Shown here: one piece after another, positions 3,787 to 46,131 of the stretch
Layout: each line of letters starts with the position of its first letter
Position numbering within the stretch: position 1 is the first letter of the stretch
Source: Phytohabitans houttuyneae
Lineage (GTDB): Bacteria; Actinomycetota; Actinomycetes; Mycobacteriales; Micromonosporaceae
Assembly: GCF_011764425.1 (NCBI RefSeq)
Contig: NZ_BLPF01000001.1
Coordinates: 558,001 to 622,000, forward strand
DNA: 64,000 nucleotides
Reading direction: 5' to 3'
Program-made: the position numbers and the translations under genes
Notes under the pieces: model-generated
Seen by the model: the letters and a program-made list of their open reading frames with translations, nothing else
Database searches by the model: none
Told to the model about the DNA's origin: nothing

Positions 3787-3819
3787 GCGTGGGTAGTGTG
3801 GACTACCCGATCAAGTAGT
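3787..3819 (-). promoter_or_regulatory. shared operator box, copy 1 (ACTAC-N8-GTAGT plus extra half-site)
   Basis: On the minus strand: ACTAC, 8 bases with central GATC, GTAGT, 4 bases, ACTAC, then CCACGC-type end. The same 33-bp layout recurs at 6898-6930 and 46053-46085. Here it sits between two divergent promoters and could serve both. The binding protein is unknown; a LuxR-type regulator is one candidate. Confidence 0.65.
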
Positions 3820-3828
3820 GGACCAGGG

Positions 3829-3857
3829 TCAATATGGCCCGATAGTCTCGCTATAAT
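3829..3857 (+). promoter_or_regulatory. rightward promoter with consensus -10 TATAAT
   Basis: TATAAT at 3852-3857 is a perfect -10 hexamer, rare in DNA this GC-rich; the matching -35 (3829-3834) is poor, suggesting activator dependence. The shared box ends nine bases upstream of that -35. The leader to the haloperoxidase-like gene would be about 80 bases. Confidence 0.45.
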
Positions 3858-3942
3858 CCGCCGTTCTCGTTTCAAAATCTGTTGGTCTCGTGTCGATGTA
3901 GTGCGGCCACTTGCGGCGGGCCGATCGAAAGGAGAATTTCCG

Positions 3943-5427
3943 ATGACGATTCTGAGGCGGCTGGGCAGACGGCGCCTGGGAGGTGCCGTGGCCTTCGCCG
4001 CAACGGCGGCCCTGGTGGGATCGCTGGCTGGCGCCGTGTCGGCGGCACCGCAGGCGGCGACGTTCGACCTCGACAACGGGAACGCCCTGATCGGAGTCAT
4101 CTATCCGAAGTTCGACACCGTGGCGCGGGACGAGCACTTCGGCCGTCCGATGCTGTTCGGCGGGGACAGTGCCCTGCTGATCGAAATGCCATTGTTTGAC
4201 GCGCTGTCCCCATATCACCCGACAGCCGTTGGCATTTTCTCGAACCTCGGCCGCCGCCCCGCGGCGGAGCACACGACGCGCAACAAGAACATTGCCGTCA
4301 TCTACTCCGCTTTCACGTCGCTCAACGTTGTGTTTCCGCAGTACAAGACGCGATGGCTGGAGATGATGGAGACGGCGGGGCTCGATCCCGCCAACACGGC
4401 CGAGGACCCGACCACGCCGAGCGGCATCGGCATTCTCGCCGCGAAGAACGCCATCGCGTCGCGCAAGCACGACGGCACCAACCGGGCCGGTGACGAGGGC
4501 GGCCAGAAGTACAACCGGCAGCCGTACGCCGACTACACCGGCTACAAGCCCGTCAACAGCGCGTACGAGCTGCGCGACCCGTCCCGCTGGCAGCCGAACA
4601 CCGTGCTGAAGAGAGACGTCTACACGGTCCAGGAGTTTGCGACGCCGCAGTTCGCCCTCTTGAAGCCGTTCACGTACGACAGCCCGAAGCAAATGCCGGT
4701 GTCCCGGCCGGCGAACAACTACTACCTCAACCGCAAGGGCTACCGGGCCCAGGCCGACGAGGTGCTGAAGGCGTCGGCGGCACTGGACGACCGCCAGAAG
4801 ATGAGCGCCGAGCTCTTCAACGACCTTGTCCGGCCGTACGGCGCGGTCGCCGGCCGGATCGTCATCGGGGGCCAGCTCAGCACCGAGGCCGCGGTCCACT
4901 ATGTCGTCACCGGTGCCATCACCGGCCTCGATGTCACGACCACGTCCTGGTTCTACAAGCGCAAGTTCGACTCGGTGCGGCCGTTCAGTGCGATCCACCA
5001 CCTGTACGGCGAGAAGAAGGTGACGGCGTGGGGCGGCCCCGGCAAGGGCACCGTCAACGACATCCCCGGCGAGGAATGGCAGGGCTACCTGAGCACGCTG
5101 GCGATCGGCTCCCCCGAGTATCCGTCCGCGATCGCGGCGCTCTGCTTCGCCTACGCGCAGCAGGCACGCCGGTTCATCGGCACCGACTCGCTGCAGATCT
5201 TCGTGCCCCTCACCAAGGGCTCCTCGCTGGTCGAACCGGGGATCACCCCGGCCAACGACATGACGTTGCAGTGGGGCAACCTGACCGACTGGGCCAACGA
5301 CTGCGGCAAGAGCCGGGTCTGGGGCGGCGAGAACTTCCCGGGCTCCGTCGAGGCGTCGAGGCAGTACGCGACGAAGATCGGCGACCTGGCGTACGAGTTC
5401 GTGCAGCGCAAGGTGAACGGCGGCTGA
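3943..5427 (+). CDS. vanadium-haloperoxidase-fold protein lacking both active-site histidines (NapH3-like)
   Basis: 494 residues with a twin-arginine export signal (RRLGRRRLGG then a hydrophobic stretch ending AGAVSAAP). The overall sequence is that of the bacterial vanadium-dependent haloperoxidases found in THN meroterpenoid clusters. The Lys-Arg site is kept (KFDSVRP, K341 and R346), but the usual Ser-Gly-His is Ser-Ala-Ile (EYPSAIAAL, residues 395-397), and the last vanadate-site histidine is Asn (SRVWGGENF, R458 and N464). Halogenation is therefore unlikely. In napyradiomycin biosynthesis the homologue NapH3 is reported to catalyse an alpha-hydroxyketone rearrangement without halogenation, so a similar 1,2-shift of a prenyl group on an oxidised naphthoquinone is the best guess. 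RBS AAGGAG precedes the ATG. Confidence 0.8.
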   Translation: MTILRRLGRRRLGGAVAFAATAALVGSLAGAVSAAPQAATFDLDNGNALIGVIYPKFDTVARDEHFGRPMLFGGDSALLIEMPLFDALSPYHPTAVGIFSNLGRRPAAEHTTRNKNIAVIYSAFTSLNVVFPQYKTRWLEMMETAGLDPANTAEDPTTPSGIGILAAKNAIASRKHDGTNRAGDEGGQKYNRQPYADYTGYKPVNSAYELRDPSRWQPNTVLKRDVYTVQEFATPQFALLKPFTYDSPKQMPVSRPANNYYLNRKGYRAQADEVLKASAALDDRQKMSAELFNDLVRPYGAVAGRIVIGGQLSTEAAVHYVVTGAITGLDVTTTSWFYKRKFDSVRPFSAIHHLYGEKKVTAWGGPGKGTVNDIPGEEWQGYLSTLAIGSPEYPSAIAALCFAYAQQARRFIGTDSLQIFVPLTKGSSLVEPGITPANDMTLQWGNLTDWANDCGKSRVWGGENFPGSVEASRQYATKIGDLAYEFVQRKVNGG

Positions 5428-5448
5428 GTTTCAGCCACTCCGACAGCG

Positions 5449-5490
5449 AGCTGCCGGCGGTCTTTCGAGACCGCCGGCAGCTTTCGTTTT
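5449..5490 (+). terminator. strong intrinsic terminator
   Basis: 14-bp stem (5449-5462 with 5469-5482, loop TTTCGA) followed by a T-rich run, 21 bases after the haloperoxidase-like gene and before the convergent gene ending at 5503. Confidence 0.85.
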
Positions 5491-5502
5491 CGAAGAGGTT
5501 CG

Positions 5503-5763
5503 CTAGGCGAGGGGTACCACCATCGCGGCGGGCCAAAGGGCGCAGATGCCGACCACGGCGATCTTTCCGGTCTCGCCGCCGTCCGAGCCGGGCCCGTCCA
5601 GCACGAGCATGTTCCAGGCGAGGGCCGGCTTGACGGGTGTCTCGACCGGGGGCGCCGGCGGCGCCGCCTCGCCGTACTGCCAGTCCAGCGCGTCGTGCCG
5701 GCTCCGCGTCACCGTGGGGTTCGCGCAGCGCCGGCCGGCCCGGAGCATCGGTTTGTCGGTCAT
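5503..5763 (-). CDS. small hypothetical protein translationally coupled to the StrR-type regulator
   Basis: 86 residues whose ATG overlaps the TGA of the upstream regulator gene (ATGA), so it is probably translated with it. The N-terminus is basic with one Cys (RAGRRCANP), the middle is Pro-rich (PPAPPVETPVKP), and the C-terminus is glycine-rich then hydrophobic (IAVVGICALWPAAMVVPLA). No family is recognised. A small partner or modulator of the regulator, or a ribosomally made peptide precursor, are both possible; the sequence does not decide. Confidence 0.5.
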   Translation of the reverse strand: MTDKPMLRAGRRCANPTVTRSRHDALDWQYGEAAPPAPPVETPVKPALAWNMLVLDGPGSDGGETGKIAVVGICALWPAAMVVPLA

Positions 5764-6803
5764 GCCCGCTCCTCGAGTTCCTGTGCGAATGCCAGCCAGG
5801 CGCCGGCGCACGACCGGGCCAGCTCGGCGACGGACTTGCGCCAGTGCGGCGGTACCGCGTCGATGAGGTCGCCCCACTCGGTCGGTTCGATGACGTGGCC
5901 GTCGACCCACCGGACGAAGGCACGGCCGTTCTCCGCGTACTTCACCGCGGGGTCCCGGATGAGGTTGCCCCGCACCGAGGGCCAGTGGGTGCTCTGCCGG
6001 GCGGTGCCCGTCCTGCGGCGCAGCACTGTCACGGAGGCATCGGCGGACGGCGGCCGTTCCTCGTCGGCGGGGCGCCGCTGCTGCGGGACGGGGTCGCGGC
6101 CGGCGCGCAGGCGCTCGCGGACGTCGCGCGCGGTGCCGACGGAGACGCCGGCCTCCTGGGCGATCGCGCGCAGCGGCGCGTCGGGCTTCATGGCGATGAC
6201 CTCGCTCGCCCGCCGGCGGCCGGCCGAGCCGTCGACCGGGCGGACCCGGCCGTCCCGTCCCACGCGGATGTCCGCCCGCTCCGCGGGGAGAAACAAACGG
6301 CGCCGGATGGTGCTCACCGTGGTCGGCGACAGTCCGGTCGCGGCCGCGACGGCCCGATCCGACCATTGTGGGTACAGGCCGAGAATGCGACTCGCCGCGG
6401 CTTCCCTGTCCGCGGGCGAAAGCGGCAGTCCATGTTTGATATTTGCGTCGACGGAAAGCAGAAACGCCTCGCCGTCATCGCCTTCGAAAAACTGGACGGC
6501 AATTTTCTCCTCGCCGCGGAGTTTTGCGGCCCGCAGCCGGTGCATTCCGTCGATGACCCGCATTGTGCTGCGGTGCACGAGAATCGGAGGAAGGTCCTGC
6601 GCGGCCGCCAGCAGCTGCACGTGCTCTGGACTCTCACCGGCCAGGCGGGGTGAATCGCCAGGTAAGAGCGAGGATATCGGCACCAGGACCGGCGGCGCTC
6701 CCTCCCGGACGACCGGACGCTCCGCGCGCACCTCACCACGCGCCGGGAATACCTTGCTGGATGAGTTGCTCTCTACGGCCAGGGGCTCTAGATTGCTCCA
6801 CAT
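5760..6803 (-). CDS. StrR/NovG-family cluster regulator with ParB-like domain
   Basis: 347-residue DNA-binding activator. It has the StrR-family layout: ParB/sulfiredoxin-like N-terminal domain (DSPRLAGESPEHVQLLA, then PPILVHRSTMRVIDGMHRL, FLLSVDANIKHGLPLS), helix-turn-helix (WSDRAVAAATGLSPTTVSTI) and a second helical unit (PLRAIAQEAGVSVGTARDV). StrR and NovG bind GTTCRACTG-N11-CRGTYGAAC; one such site is in this window at 38578-38606, before the LAL regulator. The start at 6803 (MWSNLEP) was chosen because the mapped promoter would start RNA near 6845, downstream of the earlier in-frame methionine at 6884. Its promoter carries the shared ACTAC/GTAGT box, so it sits below another regulator in the hierarchy. 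Confidence 0.85.
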   Translation of the reverse strand: MWSNLEPLAVESNSSSKVFPARGEVRAERPVVREGAPPVLVPISSLLPGDSPRLAGESPEHVQLLAAAQDLPPILVHRSTMRVIDGMHRLRAAKLRGEEKIAVQFFEGDDGEAFLLSVDANIKHGLPLSPADREAAASRILGLYPQWSDRAVAAATGLSPTTVSTIRRRLFLPAERADIRVGRDGRVRPVDGSAGRRRASEVIAMKPDAPLRAIAQEAGVSVGTARDVRERLRAGRDPVPQQRRPADEERPPSADASVTVLRRRTGTARQSTHWPSVRGNLIRDPAVKYAENGRAFVRWVDGHVIEPTEWGDLIDAVPPHWRKSVAELARSCAGAWLAFAQELEERA

Positions 6804-6851
6804 TCGACACTCGCCTATCAGCAGGTAGTATCCAGTGCACCTTCCCTCACC

Positions 6852-6881
6852 TATCATGCGAGTGACTCTGGGCGCGGGCAA
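6852..6881 (-). promoter_or_regulatory. promoter of the StrR-type regulator, TTGCCC -17- CATGAT
   Basis: On the minus strand TTGCCC (6881-6876) is followed after 17 bases by CATGAT (6858-6853; with 18 bases, ATGATA). The box ends 16 bases upstream of the -35. Flanking bases (CTCACCTATCAT, GGGCAACAC on the plus strand) are nearly identical to the promoter at 3.74 kb. Confidence 0.65.
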
Positions 6882-6897
6882 CACTACTGGGCGTCCA

Positions 6898-6930
6898 GCG
6901 TGAGTAGTATCGACTACTCGATCAAGTAGT
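6898..6930 (-). promoter_or_regulatory. shared operator box, copy 2
   Basis: Minus strand: ACTAC, TTGATCGA, GTAGT, CGAT, ACTAC, then TCACGC. It matches copy 1 at about 28 of 33 positions and has the same 16-base distance to its -35 element. It serves only the leftward regulator gene; the gene to the right ends here. Confidence 0.7.
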
Positions 6931-6983
6931 GACGAGGACGAATCCGGCTCGGAAATACAGCGGGAATTGGCACCATTGTACGG

Positions 6984-8198
6984 TCAGGCGTGTCCACTTG
7001 TGGTCCCACGGGCCCATGCTTCGATGAGCTCGGCGGCCTGGTGGCGGTTGAGCCGCGGATCGCACAGCGAGGTGTAGTGGCGCTGCAGCTCCTCCTCGTC
7101 CACCACGGGGCCACCGATGCACTCCGTCACCTCGTCGTCCGCGGCGACCTCGATGTGCAGCCCGGCGGCTTCCTGCCCGGCGGCGTCGAGGATGTCGCGG
7201 AACCGCACGGCCTCGGTGATCACGTCGGCCAGGTAGCGGGTCTTGAGCCCGGTCGGCAGCTTGACCGTGTTGCCGTGCATGGGGTCGCTGAGCCAGACCG
7301 CCTGGTGTCCCGCCGCGGCCACGCGCGAGACGATCGGCGGCAGGGCTTCCAGGATCCGGTCGCGGCCCATCCGCGCGATGAGCACGAGGCGGCCGGGCTC
7401 GCGCCGCGGGTCGAGCACCTCGCACACCCGCAGGATGTCGTCGGGCTTGGCCTTCGGGCCGACCTTGCAGCCGACCGGGTTGACGACCGACGAGAGCATC
7501 GCGATGTGCGCCTCGTCCGGCTGGCGGGTCCGCTCCCCCACCCACGGCAGGTGGGTCGAGCCCAGGTACAGCTCGTCGGTGTCCGGGTCGCGGCGGATCA
7601 GCCGCGACTCGTAGTCGATGACCAGTGCCTCGTGGCTCGACCACGGACCTTCCGGCATGGCGGTCGGGCGGTCGCCCTGGCGGTACGTGCGCATGACCCG
7701 CTGCACCTGGTCGCTGGCCTCGTAGGCCCACACCATGCGCCGCGGGTTCGCCTTGCGCGTCTCCGACGTGGCGATGTCGGAGTTGATCATGTGACCGCGG
7801 AAGGACGGGATCCGGACCGCGTCGTACCACTCGGTCGCCGCCGACCGGGGCTTCGCGAACTGACCGGCCATGCGGCCCACCCGGACCACGCTCCGGCCGG
7901 TGAGCTCGCTGAACCTGTCGCCCAGCCAGTCGATCGTCTTCAGCTTTTCCGAGGTGTGCCGGGGCGTGCACTCGTAGAAGCTCTCGGCGCAGTCGCCGAG
8001 CTGCAGTACGAGCGCCCCCGGCAGCGCCTCGCGCAGCCGCCGGACCTCGGCGGCTGTCACCAGTGGCGGTGCCTCCGCCAGCGCGCGGCAGGCTTCGTCG
8101 TACGCGGGGTGGTCTCGCCAGTCCGGTTGCTGTACCGCCGGCACGCGCTCCCACGGCCCGAGTTGGATGAGGTCCGCGATGGAGCCGGTTTGCTGCAT
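6984..8198 (-). CDS. class II (plant-type/PhzC-like) DAHP synthase
   Basis: 404 residues. Condenses phosphoenolpyruvate with erythrose 4-phosphate to DAHP, the first step of the shikimate route, in the cytoplasm. Class II motifs are clear: LQLGDCAESFYE, RVGRMAGQFAKPRS, VVNPVGCKVGPK, IARMGRD and LSDPMHGNT. ATG is preceded by GGAGGAAAG. Many clusters drawing on chorismate carry such an extra, usually less feedback-sensitive copy to raise flux. Here it is last in the group KSIII-ACP-DAHP synthase and would feed the PhzE/PhzD branch to 3-hydroxyanthranilate. It does not supply the other precursor route, which starts from aspartate. Feedback insensitivity is inferred from context, not seen. Confidence 0.93.
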   Translation of the reverse strand: MQQTGSIADLIQLGPWERVPAVQQPDWRDHPAYDEACRALAEAPPLVTAAEVRRLREALPGALVLQLGDCAESFYECTPRHTSEKLKTIDWLGDRFSELTGRSVVRVGRMAGQFAKPRSAATEWYDAVRIPSFRGHMINSDIATSETRKANPRRMVWAYEASDQVQRVMRTYRQGDRPTAMPEGPWSSHEALVIDYESRLIRRDPDTDELYLGSTHLPWVGERTRQPDEAHIAMLSSVVNPVGCKVGPKAKPDDILRVCEVLDPRREPGRLVLIARMGRDRILEALPPIVSRVAAAGHQAVWLSDPMHGNTVKLPTGLKTRYLADVITEAVRFRDILDAAGQEAAGLHIEVAADDEVTECIGGPVVDEEELQRHYTSLCDPRLNRHQAAELIEAWARGTTSGHA

Positions 8199-8237
8199 CT
8201 TTCCTCCAGTCGACAGGTGGGCGAGCCGGCCCGGGTG

Positions 8238-8486: not shown

Positions 8487-8547
8487 CAGGTGGTTCGCCT
8501 CGCTCTCTGTGTGTGTGGGTGCCGAAGAATCGGCGGTGACGTATTGG

Positions 8548-9564: not shown

Positions 9565-9601
9565 GAGCAATGCCCCTCGTACGGTGGGTGTCGGGTCCGG
9601 G

Positions 9602-11255: not shown

Positions 11256-11267
11256 GTTCGCGGTTGT

Positions 11268-23035: not shown

Positions 23036-23260
23036 GGTCTTTTCACCGCCCTCGTCGAACTGGTTGCGCTCGACAGTAAGTGGGCGTGCGCCTTCCCGGC
23101 TACGACAGGGGTGAGTAGTGGCGCTTCATTTCAGCCGTTTACGCCACAGCGCCACAGTGTTACCCCGAATACGGGATGGTGCCTTCACGTCATGTGCGAC
23201 TCGTTTCGCCGCCGCAGTATCGAGACCGGAGTGGCCTGATCTCGGGTGAGGGGAAACGAT

Positions 23261-36067: not shown

Positions 36068-37139
36068 AGCTCGCGAACCTCCCCACCGGTACCACCCAGG
36101 TGCGGACGGCGCCGGCCTCGTGCAGGCGGCCAGCGATCGTCTCGGCCCGGCGCGGGTCGTCGGCGAGCGCGACCATGCAGCCGCCCAGCCCGCCGCCGCT
36201 GATCTTGGCGCCCCGGCCACCGGCCGCGATCGCGGTCTCCACCAGCGTGTCGATCCGCTCGGTGCTGATGCCGATGTCGCGCAGCAGCCGGTGGTTTTCG
36301 GTCAGCCGCGCGCCGAGGTCGTCCACCCGGCCTTCGCCGAGGTCGCGGAGGGCGGCGTGGGTCAGGCCCGCCACCTCGCGGACGAACGTCTCCTTGGTCC
36401 GCGGGTCGCGCTCGAACGCGCCCCGCAGCATCTCCACCGCCTCCTTGGTGCTGCCGGAGGCGCCGCTGTCCGCGATGACGAACAGCCCGTCGAACTCCCA
36501 CGGGTGGGCGGCCCCGGCCCGGGCGGCGTCCGGGAAGCCTTCGCCGGCCATGGCCACGGGCAGCTCCCGGGCGAGGCCGGCGCGGAAGTAGAGGGGCGCG
36601 GTCGCGCCGGTGGCGATGGCGTCGATGCCGCTGGCCCGGCCGTGCGCCGCCGTCTCGGAGACCTGGACGAGGTCGAACACGGTTCGGGCGTCGAGGCGCC
36701 GCCCGAAGAGGTCGCCGAGGGCCAGCACGGCCGCCCGCGCGCAGGCGGCGCTGGAGCCGAGTCCGCAGCCGCGCGGTATCGCGCAGTCGATGAGCACGTC
36801 GACGCACACGCGCTCGGTGACGCCGGCCCGCACCTTGAACTCGGCCACCAGGTGCCGCAGGTCGTCTGCCTCGACCGGGGTCGCCGACCCGGTGCCCGGT
36901 CCGGCGATCGCGAACGAGATCTGGTCCGCGCCCTCACCGGCGCTGGGCAGCCGCGTCGCGGTCGCGGTGACGGGCAGCCGCGGTACCGGGATGGCCAGCG
37001 CCGGAGCGCCGTACACGACCGCGTGCTCGCCGAACAGGATGGCCTTGCCGTGGGCGCGTCCGGTACCGGTGTGGCCACGCGCGGCACCGGCCGCGGAGCC
37101 GTCCCGGTCGGCGAAGGTGAGCGAGTCCGTCGTCGCCAT
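36057..37139 (-). CDS. mevalonate kinase
   Basis: 360 residues, GHMP kinase. Phosphorylates mevalonate at C5. Motifs: GKAILFGEHAVVYGAPALA (about 30), IPRGCGLGSSAACARA (about 130), SGASGSTKEAVEM and AKISGGGLGGCMVAL (about 315). Its ATG shares a base with the stop of the GGPP synthase gene (TGATG). Second in the mevalonate operon. Confidence 0.95.
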   Translation of the reverse strand: MATTDSLTFADRDGSAAGAARGHTGTGRAHGKAILFGEHAVVYGAPALAIPVPRLPVTATATRLPSAGEGADQISFAIAGPGTGSATPVEADDLRHLVAEFKVRAGVTERVCVDVLIDCAIPRGCGLGSSAACARAAVLALGDLFGRRLDARTVFDLVQVSETAAHGRASGIDAIATGATAPLYFRAGLARELPVAMAGEGFPDAARAGAAHPWEFDGLFVIADSGASGSTKEAVEMLRGAFERDPRTKETFVREVAGLTHAALRDLGEGRVDDLGARLTENHRLLRDIGISTERIDTLVETAIAAGGRGAKISGGGLGGCMVALADDPRRAETIAGRLHEAGAVRTWVVPVGRFASYAH

Positions 37140-38227
37140 CACTGGGCCCGCTGCGTCGCCTTGATCGCCATGTCGGCGAGCTGGTGCTTGGCCGGACTGG
37201 TCGCGCTGCTCGCCTCGAGGACCGCCAGCGCCTGGTCCGCGCGCTGCGCTATCTGCCGCTCGACGTCCTCGACGGCACCGAGGCCGACGAGGATGGCGCG
37301 GAAGCGGTCGAGGTCGTCGTCGGACAGGTCGGTGCCGAGCTTGCTCCGGACGAAGGCCGCCGCGGTCGGGTCGTGTTCGTCGGCCAGCCTGAGCGCGGTG
37401 GCGATCAGCACGGTCCGCTTGCCCTCGCGCAGGTCGTCGCCGGACGGCTTGCCGGTGACCAGCGGGTCGCCGAACACGCCGAGCAGGTCGTCGCGGAGCT
37501 GGAACGCGATGCCGATGTCGGCGCCGAACGCCTGGTAGGCCGCGACGAGGTCGGCGTCCGCGCCGGCGATCGCGGCACCGAACTGCAGCGGCCGCTCCAC
37601 CGTGTACGAGGCCGTCTTGTAGCGGATGACGCGCATCGCCCGCTCGACGTCCTCGTCGTCGCTCACCTGGCTGATCAGGTCGAGCAGCTGCCCGTACATG
37701 ACCTCCGAGCGCACCGCGGACCACACCGGCGAGACCCGGGCGTGTGCCTCGATCGGCAGCCCGGAGGCGCGGACCAGGACGTCGGCCCAGATCAGCGCCA
37801 GGTCTCCGATCAGGATGGCGGTGCCGACGCCGTAGGAGTTCGAGTCACCGGAGAACCGGCGCCCCCGGTGCCGCTCGGCGTACGTGACGTGGGCGGCGGG
37901 GTGGCCACGCCGGGTCCGGGAGTCGTCGATGATGTCGTCGTGGATCAGGCCCGAGGCGTGTAGCAGCTCGAACCCCGCGCAGGCGCTCAGCACGGCTGGG
38001 GCTACCGGGTCGCCCGGGTCGCCGCCGGCGCCGATCCAGCCCAGCCAGGCGAAGGCCGGCCGGATGCGCTTGCCGCCGCGCAGCACGAAGCTCTCCAGCT
38101 CGGCGACCGTCGCGGCGAAGTCCGGACCGAGCGCGTCGGCCTCGGCCCGTCGCTCGGTGAAGAAGTCCCTGATCGCGGCATCGATAGCGGTCGTGTCCGC
38201 CGCTGCCCCGAGATAGCTGACGGTCAT
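37139..38227 (-). CDS. polyprenyl diphosphate synthase 1 (probable GGPP synthase)
   Basis: 362 residues. Chain elongation of allylic diphosphates with IPP. First Asp-rich motif DDIID at residues 97-101 (GLIHDDIIDDSRTRRG), second DDLLGVFGD (about 250); GGKRIRP near 51. Small residues (Ser, Gly) occupy positions five and four before the first motif, which favours geranylgeranyl over farnesyl length, but GPP/FPP output cannot be excluded from sequence. First gene of the mevalonate operon; the 407-base divergent gap to the LAL regulator carries the ACTAC/GTAGT palindrome and the StrR-type operator. Confidence 0.92.
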   Translation of the reverse strand: MTVSYLGAAADTTAIDAAIRDFFTERRAEADALGPDFAATVAELESFVLRGGKRIRPAFAWLGWIGAGGDPGDPVAPAVLSACAGFELLHASGLIHDDIIDDSRTRRGHPAAHVTYAERHRGRRFSGDSNSYGVGTAILIGDLALIWADVLVRASGLPIEAHARVSPVWSAVRSEVMYGQLLDLISQVSDDEDVERAMRVIRYKTASYTVERPLQFGAAIAGADADLVAAYQAFGADIGIAFQLRDDLLGVFGDPLVTGKPSGDDLREGKRTVLIATALRLADEHDPTAAAFVRSKLGTDLSDDDLDRFRAILVGLGAVEDVERQIAQRADQALAVLEASSATSPAKHQLADMAIKATQRAQ

Positions 38228-38456
38228 GCTCTGATCTCCCGTTCGAGGCGCCGGCCACTGTCACAGTCACGCATCTCGGACTCCCCTGATTCGCTGAGAT
38301 CACGTCGCTTCGTGCGGGCATTTGCCGACCCACTCGCGTAACGCGCGTCTCCGAGAAAGCAATAGCCGATTTCGGTACGAGCGCCTACCGTCCCGGCACT
38401 GCGCAATACCGAATCAGCATGCTAAAGACAGTAAGCGCGCCGTACCGTGCTGGCCC

Positions 38457-38474
38457 ACTACTCGCGCGGGTAGT
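38457..38474. promoter_or_regulatory. ACTAC-N8-GTAGT palindrome, core of the shared box
   Basis: ACTAC (38457-38461), TCGCGCGG, GTAGT (38470-38474): same arms and spacing as the core of the three shared boxes, though without the central GATC or a clear third half-site. It lies in the divergent region between the mevalonate operon (start 38227) and the LAL regulator (38635). Confidence 0.55.
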
Positions 38475-38577
38475 GCAAGCTAGCAACGGCATTCACGCCA
38501 CATCGCCGCCGATCACCGTATAACTGAGTCAGCCCGTCCGCTGCGGTGGTCGACCGAGCACCGGCAGGTGGCGGCGC

Positions 38578-38634: not shown

Positions 38635-41313
38635 ATGAATCCCTTGGTGGGGCGCGAGCACATTCTGTCCACATTGGGCAGTCACCTGGATGCCACCCTG
38701 CAGGGATCCGGCAGCTGTGTCATCGTCGATGGTCCGTTCGGCATCGGCAAGACCCACTTGTTGAAGGCCACGGCCATGGAGGCGGTCGAGCGCGGCCTGA
38801 CGGTGGTCGCCGGACGCACGAGCATCACCGATCAGCCGATTCCCATTCACCTGCTGATCAATTTCCTGCGCCATGTTCACGCCGGCGAGGGGGATTTCGA
38901 CGACCTGATGGGCCCGGACAGAAACCCATTCTGGCTGATGGACCGGGTCGGCGAGCTTGTGGAGAGCGCGTCCCGCCGCCACCCGCTCATGGTGGTGCTT
39001 GACGACGCGCAGCGGGTCGACGACGTCAGCGCCCTGGCCCTGCGCGGGCTGGTGCGGTCGCTGGCCTCCTCACCGGTGCTGTGGCTGCTCGCCCGCCGGC
39101 CGGTCGCCACCCAGTCGCTCGCGCAGCACGTCGTGGACTGGCTGATCGACCACGCCGCGGTGCAGCTTCACCTGGGGACGCTGGACCACGAGTCGGTGGC
39201 CGAGCTGTGCACCAGCTTTGTCGGTGCCAAGCCGGACGCCACGGTCCTGAGCTGGGCGGCCCGCTGCGGCGGCAACCCGTGGCTGATGGAAAACGTGTTC
39301 AGCGCGCTCATCAAGGCCGGCCAGATGATCATCACCGACGGTACGGCCTCGGTGGTGGCCGAGCGGCTGCCCGAAGGGGTCGTCGCGGCCGTGCACCGGC
39401 TGCTGGGCGAGATGTCACCCGCGGTGCGGCGGCTGCTCGTCGACGGCGGCCGCATCGGCCACACGTTCACCGTCGAGCAGGCGGCCGCCGCGATCGGCGA
39501 GCCCACCTTCGACCTGCCGTCCGCCGTCGACGAGGCGGTGCAGATGGGCCTGATGCGGCGCGACGGCATGGAGCTGACGTTCACCCACCAGGTCGTCGGT
39601 GAGGCGCTGGCGCACAACGGGTTCCGCGCGTGGGAGCCCGCCGTGACCGCTCCCCCACCGGTGGCCGTGGCCGGGCCGGCGGCCGCCCGAGGTGTGCCGG
39701 CCGCCCCGGTCGTGACCTCCCCCGCCGCGCCGGCGCGAGCGTCCGTATGCGGGTGTGAGGAGACGGCGGCCCGGGCGATCGCGAGCCTGGAGCGCGGCTT
39801 CGACGAGGCGTCCCGCACGCTGGCCCGCGCGCTGCGGCTGCTCGCCGGGGCCGGTCGGGGCGCCGAGGCCTGCCGGCTCGCGGACGTGGCCCTGCGCCGC
39901 GGCATCGAGGCGACCGCCGAGGCGCAGCTGGTGCACGAGCTCGGGCAGGGGCTGCGGGACACCGACAGCCACGGCATGGCCGCCGAGCTGCTCGCGCGCA
40001 CGCTCGCCCGGCAGGACGTCTGCGAGCTTGACCGCGCCAAGCTGAACCGGGTGCTCGCGGACACCGCGAAGCGCGTGGCCGAGGTGCCGGTCCAGGGGCT
40101 GGCGGGATCCGGTCCGAGGATCGCGGCGGGCGCGACCACTACCGCCACGGCGCCGTGGCGCGGGGAGCCGGCCAGCCGGCGGCATTGCGACACCTGCGAA
40201 CGGCCACTGTGGACCTGGCTGGTCCGGGCCCTTGTCGCGGCCGACCACGGCGAGGAGGCGGCCGCGGTCCTCGCCGCCGTCAAGGATGTCTCGCCCGCGT
40301 CGCTGTGGTACGGCCACCGCGCCGAGCTGCTGGTCGCGGCGGGCCGGCTGGATGAGGCGCGCGCCGAGGCCGAGACGGCGCTGCGGCTGGCGGACCGGTC
40401 GGCGCCCGAGGACTCCGTACCCGCTCGGCTGGTCCTGGCCCGCGTCAGCATGCACGACGGCGACCTCGCCACCGCCAGCGACCAGCTGCGCATGACCGAG
40501 CGGCTGATGAGCGACGACGCGACGGCCGACAAGGCCCGCCTGGACTGGGCCCTCGCCCGCTTCCACGCGGCGAGCGACCGCCCGGCGATGATGGTGCAGA
40601 CACTGATCAACATCGACGGCCAGGTGGTACCCGACCAGCTGCTGTTCACCGAGACCCCGGCGGCGGCCGCGTCGCTCATCCGCCAGGCCCGGCAGGTGGG
40701 GCTCGGCGCGGAGGCCGAGCTGGCGGCGGAGTTCGCCCGGCGGATCGCCCGGCGCAACCCCACCGTGCAGGCGCTGGCCGCCGCGGCCGAACACGCCGAG
40801 GGCGTCCTGCGCAACGACGCGGCCGCCCTGCACCGCGCCGCGGAGCTCTACCGCCTCGCCGGGCGCCCGCTGGCCGCCGGGAGCGCGCTGGAGGACGCGG
40901 CGCGGGTGGAGCAGAGCACGCGGGACAAGGTCCGGGCCGTCCGGCTTCTGGAGTCCGCGATGGCCGTGTACGCCGGGTGCGGCGCGCGGCGCGACGTGGA
41001 CCGGGTACGGCAGAAGCTGCCCGGCCTGGACGCGCACAACGTCCGGCGGCTGGCCGTGGAGCGGCCCAAGTCCGGCTGGGAGAGCCTCACGACCGCGGAG
41101 CTGCGGGTGGTCCGGGCGATCGTCGACGGCCGTACCAACCGGGAGGCGGCCAGCGTGCTGTTCCTGTCGCCGCACACGGTGGACACCCACCTGCGGCGGG
41201 TGTTTTCCAAGCTCGCCATCAACAGCAGGGTGGAGCTGACCAAGCGGTTCATCGCGCACGAGGCGTTTCCACCGCTGATGGTCGCCGCACACCAACCGGG
41301 CTCGGCCGGCTGA
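38635..41313 (+). CDS. LAL-type LuxR regulator with ATPase domain
   Basis: 892 residues. N-terminal AAA/STAND ATPase with Walker A GPFGIGKT (33-40) and Walker B LMVVLDDAQRVDD; long helical TPR-like middle; C-terminal LuxR helix-turn-helix (LTTAELRVVRAIVDGRTNRE, LSPHTVDTHLRRVFSKL, about 820-885). Such large regulators usually activate their cluster. A Pro/Ala-rich linker (about 335-375) and Cys-rich spots (CGCEE and CDTCE, about 380 and 520) are unusual and could bind metal or sense redox state. The promoter carries a StrR-type operator. It is convergent with the second LuxR-type gene. Confidence 0.9.
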   Translation: MNPLVGREHILSTLGSHLDATLQGSGSCVIVDGPFGIGKTHLLKATAMEAVERGLTVVAGRTSITDQPIPIHLLINFLRHVHAGEGDFDDLMGPDRNPFWLMDRVGELVESASRRHPLMVVLDDAQRVDDVSALALRGLVRSLASSPVLWLLARRPVATQSLAQHVVDWLIDHAAVQLHLGTLDHESVAELCTSFVGAKPDATVLSWAARCGGNPWLMENVFSALIKAGQMIITDGTASVVAERLPEGVVAAVHRLLGEMSPAVRRLLVDGGRIGHTFTVEQAAAAIGEPTFDLPSAVDEAVQMGLMRRDGMELTFTHQVVGEALAHNGFRAWEPAVTAPPPVAVAGPAAARGVPAAPVVTSPAAPARASVCGCEETAARAIASLERGFDEASRTLARALRLLAGAGRGAEACRLADVALRRGIEATAEAQLVHELGQGLRDTDSHGMAAELLARTLARQDVCELDRAKLNRVLADTAKRVAEVPVQGLAGSGPRIAAGATTTATAPWRGEPASRRHCDTCERPLWTWLVRALVAADHGEEAAAVLAAVKDVSPASLWYGHRAELLVAAGRLDEARAEAETALRLADRSAPEDSVPARLVLARVSMHDGDLATASDQLRMTERLMSDDATADKARLDWALARFHAASDRPAMMVQTLINIDGQVVPDQLLFTETPAAAASLIRQARQVGLGAEAELAAEFARRIARRNPTVQALAAAAEHAEGVLRNDAAALHRAAELYRLAGRPLAAGSALEDAARVEQSTRDKVRAVRLLESAMAVYAGCGARRDVDRVRQKLPGLDAHNVRRLAVERPKSGWESLTTAELRVVRAIVDGRTNREAASVLFLSPHTVDTHLRRVFSKLAINSRVELTKRFIAHEAFPPLMVAAHQPGSAG

Positions 41314-41322
41314 CCTGATCGG

Positions 41323-43392
41323 TCAGCTGGCCGCACCCTCGATGTAACCGGAGCCGTACCGGTTGTCGTCCCCCATGGAGTAGACAGCGGCCGTGCTCGT
41401 GTACGTCGCGGCACCGCGCACGAGTTCGACCCGCGTGCTGATGCCGAGCTTCTTGTAGACCTTTCTGAGGTGGTAGTTCACCGTGTGCTGCGACAGGTGT
41501 ACCTGCTTGGCTATCTGCCTGTTGGTCAGGCCGACGCTCACCAGGTAGGCGATGCGCCGCTCCATGTCGGAGAGAGTGGACCAGCAGGCGGCCAGCGGCG
41601 AACCGACCTCCTCCGAGTAGGGGGTGGCGTTCTGCCGTCCCTCCACGGAGTCCCTCGCCGCGTAGAGCTTGGCGAGCTCCTCGGTCGCGAGTGCCACCGA
41701 GATGGGATCCGGCGACTGCACGATGATGAGCGCGAGTGCGGCCGGTGCCCGGTTGGCCAAGGCGTGCGCGTGCATGGCGGTGAGGCCGATCACCGAGACG
41801 CCGGGGTTGTCGCTGGCGAGCTGGTCCACCGTCGCCAGGACGGTGCGCTCCAGGTGGCTGTCGCCGAGGTCTCGGGCGAGCACGACGAGGAACGCGGCGG
41901 CACTGGGCACCTCGATGTACAGGCTCCGCTGGGCGGGCAGCCGCCGGTGCTTGCCGGACAGCAGCTCGGCCGCCGCCGGCAGCCCGTCGCGCTTGACCGC
42001 GATGAGCAGCTCGGTCCAGGCGTACTGCACGGAGTCGAGCACCACCTGGCTCGCCACGTCGCCCTGGGCCCGCCTGAGGTACTCGACCGCCGCGGGCAGG
42101 TCTCCCATGTAGAAGGAGGCGTTGCTGAGCACCGAGTACGCCAGCGGCCGCAGCATCGGAACCGCATCCGGATCGACCGCGGTGGTCGCCAGCATCGCCT
42201 CCCGGCGGGCATCCCCTATCCGTCCGGACTGGAGGTAAACCCGGGAACGCATTGCCGCTGCCGCCGCCGTCCAGACCGGCATCGACAACACTTGCAGTGC
42301 ACCTTCCGCGTCGTTTATCAAAGATTCTGCACGGTCGAACTCGCGCAGGTTGGCGAGCTTGCCGGCAAGAGCGAGCTGGAAATGGAGCCGCCATACCGGG
42401 TCGACGCTTTCGCTGTAATGCACGGCTGCTTCGCCGAGCCGAAGACCCTCCGCCAACTCCCCCGCCCGCCAAAGCAAATTGGACCGCGTGGTCAGCGCCA
42501 TTAGAGCGGCGATGTCACCGGATCCGGTCCCGCGCTCCCGCAGGATCTTGTCGGCGAGCTTGTCGGCGTCGTCCCGGCCGAGAAGGAAGTAGCCGAGAAT
42601 CAGTGACGCCTCCGCGTCGAGGCGTGCCGAAATCGACGCTTCCGAGCTGGCGAGAACACGCTCGGCAACCCGGACGCCGGCCGCCGCATTCCCATTCATT
42701 ATCAGGCGGTGCGCCCGTGAACACATTCCGCCGGCCTCATTCTGGACCACACTTTCGTGTTCCGCCGAGCGCTCGGTCACCCACGGTTTCTGGTCGTACG
42801 CCCGGGCCCGCCGGCCGGACAGGCCCAACGCCTCGCGGCGCAGGGCGTCACGCACCGGGAGCGGGATCGACTCGTTGATGCCCTGCAGGTGGAACTCGCT
42901 GCGGAACGCCAGGCGGTGCGCGGCGGCGACGATGAACCCGGCGGCCATCGCCTCGTCCAGCGGCGTGAGCAGGGTGGCCGAGGAGCGGTCCAGCATCCTG
43001 GACACGTCCTCCAGCATGAAAGACTTACCCAGCGCCGCCGCCACCTTCAGAAACTGCTGGCAACTCGTGCTCAGGTCGCTCAGCTGGCGCATGACGAACT
43101 CCACGATTCTTCGGGGAATTCGCCTTTCGATCAGCTGAATTCTGCCACTGTCCTCCTTAACCAATCCCTCTTCCGCGAGCCCGAGAGCGAACTCGGCCAG
43201 CAAATGCCGATTTCCCCCGGCACCCGCAGCGAATTCGACTAGCTCGCGATCGACGTCAGCCCCGAGGATGTCGCGCAATACCTGCCCGTTTTCATCCTCA
43301 TCCAGCCGCCCAGAAGTCGATCCATTGGCGACAGAAACATTGGCCGGTATCGCTTCTAGATCCTGGCCATCTTGCGTTGGTCCCGTAGTCAT
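41323..43392 (-). CDS. LuxR-type regulator lacking the ATPase domain
   Basis: 689 residues. C-terminal LuxR helix-turn-helix (LSDMERRIAYLVSVGLTNRQ, then LSQHTVNYHLRKVYKKL) and a long TPR-like helical region typical of LAL regulators, but the protein starts where the ATPase would already be ending: no Walker A or B is seen in the first 100 residues, only the winged-helix-like part (LIERRIPRRIVEFVMRQLSD, AAALGKSFMLEDVSRML). Either this is a naturally short form, or the 5' part was lost. It may act without nucleotide, or by pairing with the full LAL protein next door. Ends nine bases from that convergent gene. Confidence 0.85.
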   Translation of the reverse strand: MTTGPTQDGQDLEAIPANVSVANGSTSGRLDEDENGQVLRDILGADVDRELVEFAAGAGGNRHLLAEFALGLAEEGLVKEDSGRIQLIERRIPRRIVEFVMRQLSDLSTSCQQFLKVAAALGKSFMLEDVSRMLDRSSATLLTPLDEAMAAGFIVAAAHRLAFRSEFHLQGINESIPLPVRDALRREALGLSGRRARAYDQKPWVTERSAEHESVVQNEAGGMCSRAHRLIMNGNAAAGVRVAERVLASSEASISARLDAEASLILGYFLLGRDDADKLADKILRERGTGSGDIAALMALTTRSNLLWRAGELAEGLRLGEAAVHYSESVDPVWRLHFQLALAGKLANLREFDRAESLINDAEGALQVLSMPVWTAAAAAMRSRVYLQSGRIGDARREAMLATTAVDPDAVPMLRPLAYSVLSNASFYMGDLPAAVEYLRRAQGDVASQVVLDSVQYAWTELLIAVKRDGLPAAAELLSGKHRRLPAQRSLYIEVPSAAAFLVVLARDLGDSHLERTVLATVDQLASDNPGVSVIGLTAMHAHALANRAPAALALIIVQSPDPISVALATEELAKLYAARDSVEGRQNATPYSEEVGSPLAACWSTLSDMERRIAYLVSVGLTNRQIAKQVHLSQHTVNYHLRKVYKKLGISTRVELVRGAATYTSTAAVYSMGDDNRYGSGYIEGAAS

Positions 43393-43775
43393 AATCCCCC
43401 GAGATTATGCGGACACACCTGAAACACAGAGCTTCAAGCTTGATCACCCTAGCACACGGCGTTGTCGCTCATCTATCTAAAACCTGCTCACACCCCTGCC
43501 GTCAACTGGGCAGGTTCAAGGGGCGAAGTCGTAGGATGTCGGGCGGCGTCGACTGATATCGGACCAATCTGAGCATTGACATCATCGACCCATGAGTTGC
43601 CAGCCTGGCGCCATGAGGCACCCCTATAAAACCCCTATGTCGCCGACAGCTACTGCGCCTGCAGTACCGCACACGCAGTAGCAGGTTCGGGAAAGTGTCT
43701 TCATCTGTACGTCGACGTATCAGGCGCCCGTCACGAACATTGACTCGCAGGCTCATGACTCTTGAGGAGAAGACG
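43393..43775. other. 383-base divergent intergenic region with two dyads
   Basis: Regulatory region between the short LuxR-type gene and the MMPL exporter. Besides the operator at 43649-43682 there is a small hairpin (CCTGCC 43495-43500 with GGCAGG 43509-43514). No credible coding frame is seen. Promoter hexamers could not be set with confidence. Confidence 0.5.
43649..43682. promoter_or_regulatory. nested palindrome: GCTACTGCG-N16-CGCAGTAGC with inner TACTG-N6-CAGTA
   Basis: Outer 9-bp arms (43649-43657, 43674-43682) are perfect; the left arm also forms TACTG-N6-CAGTA (43651-43666) with the same spacing as at 27609-27624. Three TACTG/CAGTA half-sites in 34 bases suggest cooperative binding of a dimer, probably the response regulator at 25763. 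It is 94 bases upstream of the MMPL start. Confidence 0.55.
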
Positions 43776-45953
43776 ATGCCCACCGAGACTCCCCGTGCGG
43801 ATGGAGCTCTGGCAGGACTGGCCCGGTTCTGTTACCGGCGCCGTCGACTGGTCCTCTTCGCCTGGATCATCGGCGTCCTCGCGCTGGCGTTCCTCGGCTT
43901 CCGCTTCGGTGCCGAGCCCGACAACCAGTACTCGGGTGGGGACTCCCACTCGGCCAAGGCGCAGGCCCTGCTCGCGCAGCACTTCCCGCAGCAGCGGGGC
44001 GACACGCTGACCCTTGCGATCAAGGCGGACCAGGGCATCGACGACCCGGCCACCCGGCAGAAGATCGAAAAGGTCATCGCCGAGCTGGACGCCTCGCCGG
44101 TCACCGGCCCGATCACCTCGCCGTACCAGGACGAGAGCCTGGTCACCCAGGACCGTCGCATCGCCCGGACCACCATCCCGCTGACCGACATGGACGTGCC
44201 GAAGGCCGACGTCAAGCCGCTGGTGACCACCGTCAAGGACGCCTCCGGTGACGGGCTGACGCTGGGCCTTGGCGGCGACAAGGCGGAGAAGGCGGAGACG
44301 CCGCCGCAGGGTCCGGCCGAGGGCATCGGCCTGCTGACCGCCGCGATCATCCTGTTCATCGCGTTCGGGTCGCTGGTGGCGATGGGCCTTCCGATCGTGA
44401 CCGGCCTGATGGCGGTCCTCGGCGGCATCGGCGTGATGAAGCTCGTCGGCCACCTGGCTCCCTCGCCCGACTTCACGGTGCTCGTCGCGGTGCTGATCGG
44501 GCTCGGCGTCGGCATCGACTACGCGCTGTTCATCCTGACGCGCTACCGGGACAGCCTGCAGGAGGGCGACGACCCGGAGACCGCGACGGTCAAGGCGATC
44601 ACGACCGCCGGCCGCGCGGTGCTGTTCGCCGGTACGACCGTGGTGATCGCGCTGCTGGGCCTGATCGCCATGGGCCAGAAGATGATGACCGGCGTGGCCA
44701 TCGGCGCGTCGTCGGCCGTGCTGGTGACGATGATCGCCGCGGTGACCCTGCTGCCCGCGTTCCTCGGCTTCATCGGCTACAAGATCGACTCGCTGCGCCT
44801 GCCCCGCCGCAGGCCCCGCGGCCACGCCGCCGGTGTCCCCGCGCGGGAGCGCCGCACCCTCGCAGAGCGGTGGGCCGGCGTGGTCCAGCGCCGCCCGCTG
44901 GTCGCCGCGCTCGGCGCCGGCGCGATCCTGCTGGTGCTCGCGGCACCCGCGCTGTCGATGCGGCTGAGCCTGCCGGACGCCAGCGTGCAGCCGCACGACC
45001 GCAGCAGCTACACGTCGTACACGATCATCTCCGAGGGTTTCGGCCCCGGCTACGGCGCACCGTTCATCTTCGCGACCCAGGTGGACTCCGGCGACACCGA
45101 CCTCGGCCCCGTCGTCCAGGCGGTCCGCAACACCGAGGGCATCGCCTTCGCCACCCCGCCGCGGGTCAGCGAGGACGGGCAGGCCGCCACCTTCATGGCC
45201 TTCCCGACGACCGGCTACCAGGACGAGAAGACCACGGCGCTGGTACACAAGCTGCGCGACGAGGTGCTGCCGAACACGCCGGGCGGCGCGGAGGTCTTCC
45301 TCGGCGGCCCGAACGCGGGCGCGATCGACTTCGCCGAGGACACCAGCTCGCGCCTGCCGCTGATGATCACGGTGGTCATCGTGCTGTCCCTGATCCTGCT
45401 GGTCGCGCTGGTCCGGTCGATCACGATCGCGCTGCAGGCCGCGGTGATGAACCTGCTGTCGATCGGCGCCGCGTACGGCGTGCTCGTCGCGATCGTCCAA
45501 TGGGGATGGCTCGGCTCGGCGCTCGGTTTCCCGACCGAGATGCCGATCACGACCTGGGTGCCGATGATGATGTTCCCGCTGCTGTTCGGCCTTTCGATGG
45601 ACTACGAGGTCTTCCTGATCTCGCGGATCCGCGAGGAGTACGAGCGCACGGGCGACACCCGCATGGGCGTCACGCGCGGCCTGGCGCGCACGGCGAAGGT
45701 CATCACGGCCGCCGCCGCCATCATGATCGCAATCTTCACCACCGCGCTGCTCGGCCCGGACGTGTCGGTCAAGCAGATCGGCTTGGGCATGGCCATCGCC
45801 GTCCTCGTGGACGCCACCATCATCCGGATGATCCTCGTCCCGGCGGTGATGGAGCTCTGCGGCGACGCCAACTGGTGGATGCCCGGAAGGCGTAAGTCGA
45901 AGGCGACCTCGGTTCCCCCGGCTGAGGTCGAGGAGGAGGCGGCCAGAGTCTGA
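43776..45953 (+). CDS. MMPL/RND-type exporter
   Basis: 725 residues, inner-membrane proton-driven exporter. Two repeats of one helix, a large outside domain and five helices, each with the RND core: first half FVGLGVGIDYALFILTRYRD-type motif seen as GLGVGIDYALFILTRYRD (about 245), second half LFGLSMDYEVFLISRIREEY (about 605). Homologues in actinomycete clusters export lipophilic polyketides and terpenoids, so the product or its prenylated intermediates are plausible cargo. ATG at 43776 is preceded by GAGGAGA six bases upstream. A strong terminator follows. Confidence 0.93.
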   Translation: MPTETPRADGALAGLARFCYRRRRLVLFAWIIGVLALAFLGFRFGAEPDNQYSGGDSHSAKAQALLAQHFPQQRGDTLTLAIKADQGIDDPATRQKIEKVIAELDASPVTGPITSPYQDESLVTQDRRIARTTIPLTDMDVPKADVKPLVTTVKDASGDGLTLGLGGDKAEKAETPPQGPAEGIGLLTAAIILFIAFGSLVAMGLPIVTGLMAVLGGIGVMKLVGHLAPSPDFTVLVAVLIGLGVGIDYALFILTRYRDSLQEGDDPETATVKAITTAGRAVLFAGTTVVIALLGLIAMGQKMMTGVAIGASSAVLVTMIAAVTLLPAFLGFIGYKIDSLRLPRRRPRGHAAGVPARERRTLAERWAGVVQRRPLVAALGAGAILLVLAAPALSMRLSLPDASVQPHDRSSYTSYTIISEGFGPGYGAPFIFATQVDSGDTDLGPVVQAVRNTEGIAFATPPRVSEDGQAATFMAFPTTGYQDEKTTALVHKLRDEVLPNTPGGAEVFLGGPNAGAIDFAEDTSSRLPLMITVVIVLSLILLVALVRSITIALQAAVMNLLSIGAAYGVLVAIVQWGWLGSALGFPTEMPITTWVPMMMFPLLFGLSMDYEVFLISRIREEYERTGDTRMGVTRGLARTAKVITAAAAIMIAIFTTALLGPDVSVKQIGLGMAIAVLVDATIIRMILVPAVMELCGDANWWMPGRRKSKATSVPPAEVEEEAARV

Positions 45954-45968
45954 CCGATTCCTCGAAGT

Positions 45969-46009
45969 GGAGTGTGGGGGACCCTGGCGGCGTTCCCCAC
46001 ACTCCTTTT
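45969..46009 (+). terminator. intrinsic terminator after the MMPL gene
   Basis: Perfect 11-bp stem (45969-45979 with 45995-46005) followed by TTTT (46006-46009), 15 bases after the stop codon. Confidence 0.85.
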
Positions 46010-46052
46010 ACGTACGGGAGGCCGCATCCCCGATGCCAGCCAGGCCGAGGCG

Positions 46053-46085
46053 ACTACAAGATCGGGTAGTGAACACTACCCACGC
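46053..46085 (+). promoter_or_regulatory. shared operator box, copy 3
   Basis: ACTAC, AAGATCGG, GTAGT, GAAC, ACTAC, then CCACGC on the plus strand. Same 33-bp plan as at 3787 and 6898, again 16 bases upstream of the -35. Directs the SARP regulator gene. Confidence 0.7.
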
Positions 46086-46101
46086 TCCTCTGTGGCCGAT
46101 G

Positions 46102-46131
46102 TTGCTTGTGGTGAGTCCCACTGGCGATGAT
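46102..46131 (+). promoter_or_regulatory. promoter of the SARP regulator, TTGCTT -18- GATGAT
   Basis: TTGCTT (46102-46107) and GATGAT (46126-46131), giving a start near 46138. Matches the promoters at 3.74 and 6.85 kb in hexamers and spacing. Confidence 0.6.

Follow-up and report, generated by a model that had tools for sequence, protein, structure and literature searches.

Many antibiotic gene clusters are controlled by LAL regulators, and a search of the open-access literature, outside which most subscription papers lie, found no published ACTAC/GTAGT operator for LuxR or LAL proteins. According to the accessible parts of the respective sources, no binding consensus could be predicted for SCO6993 (PMC9628970), the DNA binding of Tei16* and Dbv3 is obscure or not studied (PMC10135024), MilR requires its Walker motifs (PMC5015266), and both LALs of the geldanamycin cluster are required (PMC6784220). 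Here, a 64,000 nt stretch of the Phytohabitans houttuyneae genome (the window; contig NZ_BLPF01000001.1, positions 558,001 to 622,000) is analyzed, whose gene content fits a diazepinomicin-like cluster and which contains recurring copies of an 18-bp palindrome, roughly ACTAC-YYRNNYRR-GTAGT. The palindrome is probably the operator of a LuxR-type protein with a GerE helix-turn-helix (HTH), encoded at 41323-43392, which would activate promoters in both a class II and a long-range mode; this assignment draws on sequence comparison across genomes.

The palindrome in the window and the genome

Three boxes in the window (O1, O2 and O6; Table 1) match ACTAC-N8-GTAGT-N4-ACTAC-NCACG without mismatch. 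In all three, 16 bases separate the box from a TTGCCC or TTGCTT hexamer, followed by -35 to -10 gaps of 18 (O1), 17 (O2) and 18 (O6) bases. A fourth place, O5, has three mismatches to the long pattern and an exact core palindrome. Counting up to three mismatches, these four matches compare with a mean of 0.01 and a maximum of 1 in 100 dinucleotide-preserving shuffles of the window. The basic unit is the 18-bp palindrome rather than the 33-bp box, which is a composite of the palindrome core and a third ACTAC as an extra half-site.

Across the 11.34 Mb genome, the exact three-part pattern occurs three times, always in the window, and the mirrored pattern, used throughout as a control, does not occur. 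With up to two mismatches, there are five matches, again all in the window, the two extra ones being an overlapping partner of O2 and the palindrome at 38457; the mirror control also yields five, so that the location of relaxed matches counts and their number does not. The core ACTAC-N8-GTAGT alone is found at 11 places (19 for the mirror control), five of which fit the operator, with inner bases that read YYR..YRR or come close to it (one side of 46053 has AAG). Four of the five lie in the window. The fifth, C1:349047-349064, is found 213 kb upstream of the closest of these four, where it separates a second haloperoxidase-like gene, which shares 42 percent identity with the first, from a divergent frame. 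TANNNT is present at +21 and +23 from this palindrome. Overall, palindromes mark the promoters of the haloperoxidase, prenyl-diphosphate synthase, LAL, StrR-type and SARP genes, together with the unlinked second haloperoxidase.

The original prediction of three boxes with one grammar, 16 bases from TTGCYY, and of a recurring core at 38457-38474 is confirmed by these matches. Its proposal that one regulator's sites span the cluster is supported, exact sites being few elsewhere in the genome; the genome scan that it suggested finds the exact box only in the window and, with relaxed matching, no more places than the mirror control.

Promoter geometry

The geometry was determined for 73 exact palindromes, each read in both directions (146 in total). 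TANNNT is located at +22 in 37 directions and at +23 in 22, covering 59 of the 73 sites, compared with an average of about 0.5 and a maximum of 4 at other offsets, a difference whose nominal P ignores the relatedness of the sites. When the flanks are clustered into 19 groups, TANNNT stands at +22/23 in 13 representatives and at no other offset in more than two; with looser clustering, the share at +22/23 is 6 of 11. Placing this -10 element at -12 to -7 yields a predicted palindrome centre of -43.5 or -44.5, close to the -42.5 of class II operators, and the 18 bp length at all 73 sites falls within their 16 to 20 bp range.

A third half-site accompanies 13 of the 73 sites, at N4 (10 sites) or N5 (3 sites), and was absent from the 73 at other distances of 0-15 and in inverted orientation. 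TTGCY elements occur at +31/32 in 10 directions and at +20 in 2, all on the side of the third ACTAC and at 12 of the 13 half-site sites; five other TTGCY sequences within +5 to +39 have other offsets and lie on sides without a half-site. At O1 in genomes G082 and G084, the distance to TTGC is 11 bp shorter, or about one helical turn. Moreover, eight sites have both outputs on opposite sides. Among 21 further genomes, the three-part box occurs in one, Streptomyces carminius, where the geometry is unchanged: the half-site stands at N4, TTGCCC at +31 and, toward the haloperoxidase, TAATTT at +22. The box is thus an extended version of a simpler operator, seen in Micromonosporaceae and in one Streptomyces.

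The 33-bp box at 16 bases from the -35 element was not sustained as a general grammar: TTGCY at +20/31/32 is a feature of 12 of 73 sites, compared with 59 of 73 for TANNNT at +22/+23. The class II geometry was absent from the original account, whose TTGCYY promoters form the second, longer-range output. The palindrome at 3802-3819 also faces a second promoter-like element, on the side of the divergent haloperoxidase-like gene, which the original prediction had named as a possible target. The other targets that it named are retained, and the set now extends to the divergent promoter between prenyl-diphosphate synthase and LAL genes, the second haloperoxidase and, in some relatives, the aspartokinase operon.

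Palindrome positions in related clusters

Of 354 genomes surveyed in the family, 14 contain the exact three-part pattern, and 7 of these have a diazepinomicin-like cluster. In the other 7, and at a second place in G220, the core differs (GAC) and the neighbours are genes that we take to be BlaI-like or cytochrome bd oxidase genes; with 7 of 14 genomes and one of two G220 sites being of this kind, the pattern was rejected as a family-wide regulon marker. Such GAC-core ACTAC/GTAGT sites (loci L008 and L014-L019, and C1:4929103 in the P. houttuyneae genome itself) adjoin presumed cytochrome bd oxidase-like and BlaI-like genes, and appear to constitute a separate operator family with the same half-site.

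The operator core ACTACYYGNNCGRGTAGT is present in 9 of the 354 genomes, namely in eight diazepinomicin-like clusters and in G036, where PhzE-like and DAHP synthase genes of a different locus flank it. Its mirror control is found in 22 genomes, and the argument is therefore one of position, not of rarity alone. In particular, the palindromes of the eight clusters occupy corresponding intergenic places: the prenyl-diphosphate synthase/LAL gap has an exact one in 8 of 8, and the haloperoxidase palindrome is likewise present in all eight. The StrR-type promoter has one in six clusters, to which G220 adds the site shared with the haloperoxidase, and the second haloperoxidase has one in three (in G005 by inspection), its counterpart in the P. 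houttuyneae genome being unlinked. Between the aspartokinase and PhzE-like genes, two clusters have an exact palindrome and four have one arm mismatch; at the SARP gene, two are exact and two have one mismatch. In P. suffuscus (G005), a site similar to C1:349047-349064, with a haloperoxidase-like frame (by inspection), is found inside the cluster, at 9789166.

Candidate reader of the palindrome

Genes for both the LAL and the LuxR-type protein at 41323-43392 are present in 8 of 8 diazepinomicin-like clusters. The latter protein has a C-terminal GerE HTH, as LALs do (E=2.5e-13, residues 606-659), and an hhalign comparison of the A1 reader profile with the window LAL gave a probability of 99.9 over 750 columns, a full-length similarity whose N-terminal part comes from the one full LAL (G036) in that profile. 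The LAL P-loop is missing: no Walker A motif (G....GK[ST]) was found in the window protein or in seven orthologues from diazepinomicin clusters, nor in L097-L114, L126 and L142 (the L114 frame has only 392 aa). The G036 relative does have Walker A, as do 17 of 21 proteins of L115-L137 (L126 and L134 left out). The protein at 41323-43392 and its orthologues appear to be LAL-derived proteins without Walker A, located next to a LAL in 8 of 8 clusters. That LAL has Walker A in all clusters except G005, whose tested open frame is without the motif; in this P. suffuscus genome, the LAL match is split between two frames (G005:C1:9814875-9817471).

A StrR-type gene had no match at E<=0.001 in the whole genomes of G198 and G036, both of which keep exact palindromes, and a SARP was not found in the fetched 80-100 kb regions of G163, G182, G198 and G220 (whole genomes were not searched). 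Within 60 kb in G036, an HTH pattern search finds a single GerE-type protein, a full LAL, whose HTH, GLTNRQVARRVSLSPHTVNYHLR, is like GLTNRQIAKQVHLSQHTVNYHLR of the LuxR-type protein and unlike GRTNREAASVLFLSPHTVDTHLR of the neighbouring LAL. This likeness led us to align nine such proteins and to scan genome contigs from 84,980 species with the alignment, which returned 169 pattern matches and 116 relatives; the best 80 of these gave 77 distinct loci from Streptomyces, Actinomadura, Saccharothrix, Umezawaea, Nocardia, Nonomuraea and others.

The 1.575 Mb around these 77 loci contain 46 exact ACTAC-N8-GTAGT palindromes, distributed over 41 loci, compared with a total of 2 at eight other spacings (4-7 and 9-12); for the mirrored pattern, the counts are 0 at spacing 8 and 11 over the other spacings together. 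The resulting rate is 29 per Mb; in the P. houttuyneae genome, matches that are not operators occur at about 0.5 per Mb. Further, the closer the HTH is to that of the window protein, the more often a site is present: of the loci with >=32/43 identical positions, 19 of 20 have one (the lone miss being a 5.7-kb contig), followed by 14 of 23 (28-31), 6 of 25 (24-27), 2 of 8 (20-23) and 0 of 1 (no HTH detected). In 21 whole genomes, ACTACYYRNNYRRGTAGT has 38 sites, 1-4 per genome, compared with 6 for the mirror control. The fetched loci account for 24 of them, 13 more lie on the same contig within about 66 kb and 1 lies on another contig, so that 37 of 38 share the regulator's contig; the fair test consists of the 14 sites outside the fetched loci, 13 of which do. 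The odd site, G366:C91:117903-117920, has no window homologue within 4 kb (8 kb fetched).

In 13 site-bearing Saccharothrix-type loci (Saccharothrix, Umezawaea and Nocardia: L115-L120, L125, L127, L131, L133, L136, L137 and L160), no GerE protein besides the regulator itself turned up in the HTH pattern search within 10 kb. Where neighbours were compared, the site adjoins an SDR gene in the three Saccharothrix/Umezawaea loci with an intact-looking regulator (L116, L118 and L120) and in L131; the L118 SDR resembles 2,3-dihydro-2,3-dihydroxybenzoate dehydrogenase. In L115 (Nocardia), no window homologue lies closer than a DAHP synthase, 1.4 kb off. The L118 LAL and its operator-bearing dihydroxybenzoate-dehydrogenase-like gene are located beside the riboflavin genes ribD and ribBA, and no obvious antibiotic cluster was seen among the five neighbours scanned.

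In the proposed mechanism, a dimer of the 41323-43392 protein would sit on the palindrome and activate promoters in two ways. In the class II mode, the palindrome would abut the -35 region of the haloperoxidase and prenyl-diphosphate synthase promoters, and of the aspartokinase promoter in relatives. In the long-range mode, proposed for the secreted-protein, StrR-type and SARP promoters, the third half-site, which lies two helical turns (22 bp) away from the first ACTAC, would help a second protomer or dimer to reach RNA polymerase from about -60 to -75. The transcription starts would then follow the -10 elements listed in Table 1.

Alternative explanations

The original prediction had named two LuxR-type proteins and the SARP as candidate readers; on comparison, the LuxR-type protein at 41323-43392 stands out among them, and not the SARP or the neighbouring LAL. 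That the neighbouring LAL (38635-41313) alone reads the palindrome in its own promoter is quite unlikely. The palindrome is upstream of this gene, and the gene itself present, in 8 of 8 clusters, but its type of HTH (REAAS..FLSPHTVD) was not found near the site in G036 (60 kb), L142 and the 13 Saccharothrix-type loci by a pattern search that a very divergent HTH could escape, whereas the 41323-43392-type HTH was found at these same loci; in P. suffuscus, moreover, the sites persist although the LAL match is split. It is very improbable that the SARP or the StrR-type protein is the reader, even though both genes carry a box in the window and the ACTAC direct repeat at 22 bp recalls the repeat spacing of SARP sites. 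SARP operators are direct repeats just upstream of the -10 element, whereas here the box is 16 bp upstream of the -35 element; further, a StrR box would be expected to come with a StrR-type gene, but the palindrome is kept in G198 and G036, whose whole genomes gave no StrR-type match at E<=0.001, and a SARP was not found in the fetched regions of G163, G182, G198 and G220. A NarL-type HTH behind a histidine kinase (25963) was also rejected, as the HTH there differs in G220 and G198 while the palindrome stays; NarL-type HTHs were not found within 10 kb in the 13 Saccharothrix-type loci.

The 41323-43392 protein might instead bind the palindrome as a repressor that touches the -35 region, which we consider unlikely. 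Overlap with that region is repressor geometry too, and the LAL regulator SCO6993 is a repressor according to the accessible text (PMC9628970); however, the fixed +22/+23 distance together with a second geometry (about -65 to -75, shifting by 11 bp) fits activation better, and the sequences standing where a -35 hexamer would be expected (such as TGGGCA and TGGACC; by eye, unscored) depart from TTGACA. The least probable explanation is an operator of a BlaI-type repressor. The exact three-part pattern does occur elsewhere beside presumed BlaI-like and cytochrome bd oxidase genes (ACTACGAC....GTAGTATTTACTAC), but with a different core and in a different context, and no BlaI-type Pfam match was found among the window proteins scanned (several open reading frames, ORFs, were unscanned and no dedicated search was made).

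Several observations weigh against, or set limits to, the LuxR-type protein as reader and activator. The neighbouring LAL co-occurs in all eight clusters, and a LAL-type regulator without Walker A is odd. The aspartokinase site is degenerate in the window, the SARP box is poorly conserved (arm mismatch in G005 and G082), the G084 SARP site keeps palindrome and half-site without TTGCY at the tested offsets, and 10 of the 73 sites have neither promoter type. Allowing two mismatches, the genome has 20 places compared with 48 for the mirror control; weak sites are thus indistinguishable from chance by number, and the relaxed pattern was dropped as a regulon scan. The peptide patterns of the collection scan included S[QAP]HTVNYH, so that the HTH clade was built into the search; the 21 genomes were picked from site-positive loci, and loci and sites are phylogenetically redundant, being related by descent. 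Finally, an exact site is missing from the examined DNA of 36 of the 77 loci; at 12 of these 36, an imperfect one with 1-2 arm mismatches has TANNNT at +22/23, where other offsets lead one to expect about one such case.

Genes of the cluster

Table 1. Palindromes, putative promoter elements and principal genes in the window.
Feature	Position	Strand	Remarks
Putative secreted protein	2748..3647	-	signal-like N-terminus by eye; no Pfam/NCBIfam match
Putative long-range promoter, secreted-protein gene	3741..3770	-	-35 TTGCCC 3765-3770, -10 AATGAT 3741-3746; offset +31
Box O1	3787..3819	-	palindrome 3802-3819, third half-site ACTAC 3793-3797
Putative class II -10 TAGTCT, haloperoxidase-like gene	3843..3848	+	23 bp from palindrome edge
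Vanadium-haloperoxidase-like protein	3943..5427	+	DUF6851 and VCPO_2nd; scanned from 3946, start by inspection
StrR/ParB-type regulator gene	5760..6803	-	HTH_23 and weak parB_part by HMM; start by inspection
Putative long-range promoter, StrR-type gene	6853..6881	-	-35 TTGCCC 6876-6881, -10 CATGAT 6853-6858
Box O2	6898..6930	-	palindrome 6913-6930, third half-site 6904-6908
O4, degenerate palindrome, one arm mismatch	23102..23119	.	between aspartokinase and PhzE-like genes; exact in G163 and G182
Putative class II -10 TACTGT	38428..38433	-	toward prenyl-diphosphate synthase gene 37139-38227; 23 bp from palindrome
O5, palindrome without third half-site	38457..38474	.	between prenyl-diphosphate synthase (FPPS) and LAL genes
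Putative -10 TATAAC, LAL gene	38519..38524	+	44 bp from palindrome; 43 or 44 in seven relatives
LAL regulator	38635..41313	+	Walker A GPFGIGKT; GerE HTH unlike that of 41323-43392
Proposed reader, LuxR-type protein	41323..43392	-	TPR region, C-terminal GerE HTH, without Walker A
SARP frame	45967..47079	+	Trans_reg_C and BTAD; likely start ATG 46201 by inspection
Box O6	46053..46085	+	palindrome 46053-46070, third half-site 46075-46079
Putative long-range promoter, SARP gene	46102..46131	+	-35 TTGCTT 46102-46107, -10 GATGAT 46126-46131

The diazepinomicin cluster is reportedly the subject of a 2008 study by McAlpine. As published, in the part of the source available, it combines PhzE-, PhzD- and dehydrogenase-like genes for 3-hydroxyanthranilate with an ABBA prenyltransferase (PMC3871700). 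Pfam and NCBIfam matches in the window include a class II DAHP synthase, a DHQ synthase II (3,4-AHBA synthase-like), a DhnA-type aldolase, an aspartokinase, a PhzE-like enzyme, an isochorismatase, a dehydrogenase, mevalonate-pathway genes, a prenyl-diphosphate synthase and ABBA prenyltransferases. The matches to Chorismate_bind/GATase, isochorismatase, SDR and PTase_Orf2 correspond to 3-hydroxyanthranilate genes and an ABBA prenyltransferase, and fit a diazepinomicin-like cluster by gene content, as matched to the published description and not to the dzm sequence.

The gene at 5760-6803 is presumably of StrR type, a label taken from the original prediction; three further StrR-type paralogues, 44-51 percent identical, are located at C1:2131894, C1:2141881 and C2:406912 of the same genome. 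The SARP domain (45967-47079) and an ATPase part (47141-49678) are in different frames here and in a single frame in the G082 and G084 matches, and the split appears to be a frameshift or an assembly error in the window. Additional ORFs resembling ABBA prenyltransferases, one of them short, occupy 50946-52839; methyltransferase, DegT and type III PKS genes adjoin them and reach 58.5 kb, perhaps as parts of a second cluster.

Discussion

A rule that ties one LAL/LuxR HTH clade to one operator and one fixed geometry would make regulons readable from genome sequence and would indicate which regulator to over-express in silent clusters. As a tentative generalization, which may well prove too broad, proteins of the clade ..TNRQ[IV]A..LS[AP]HTVNYHLR could share one portable cis-code, the operator ACTAC-YYRNNYRR-GTAGT in rigid class II placement, across varied actinomycete loci. 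In diazepinomicin-type clusters, the reader would have lost its ATPase and become paired with the adjacent ATPase-bearing LAL, whose own gene it would control, so that sensing and reading of the DNA would be divided between two LAL paralogues. The Walker requirement of MilR and the geldanamycin LAL pair make such a division of labour plausible, though unproven. The need for the LAL ATPase is directly testable here, because the proposed reader is without it; and if the clade-wide code is true, the Saccharothrix-type LAL would occupy ACTACCCGCGTGAGTAGT.

Several known systems resemble parts of this arrangement. The lux and tra boxes, class II sites of LuxR/TraR-type proteins, are also 18-20 bp palindromes centred near -42.5; here the sequence is another, N22/23 to the -10 element is kept across genera, and a half-site extension serves a divergent promoter. 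MalT is likewise a LAL-like protein that uses multiple half-sites in phase with the promoter, but its boxes are GGA(T/G)GA, whereas here a palindrome is joined by one half-site. The LAL regulators SCO6993, MilR, PikD, GdmRI/II, Dbv3 and Tei16* share the C-terminal GerE HTH, the TPR region and the setting in an antibiotic cluster, and the reader profile aligns along the window LAL; the reader of the window cluster has no Walker A, whereas MilR needs its Walker motifs (PMC5015266). MilO of mildiomycin is a LuxR-family cluster-situated activator with three repeats, but these are direct repeats, and the accessible text mentions no palindrome (PMC11784345). According to the part of the source available, the PAS-LuxR PimM and the SARP-LAL PimR also combine operators conserved across clusters with a regulatory cascade, though with other sequences, and the PimM orthologue PteF has 97 of 101 predicted sites outside its cluster (PMC4700089), whereas 37 of 38 sites of the present operator are on the regulator's contig.

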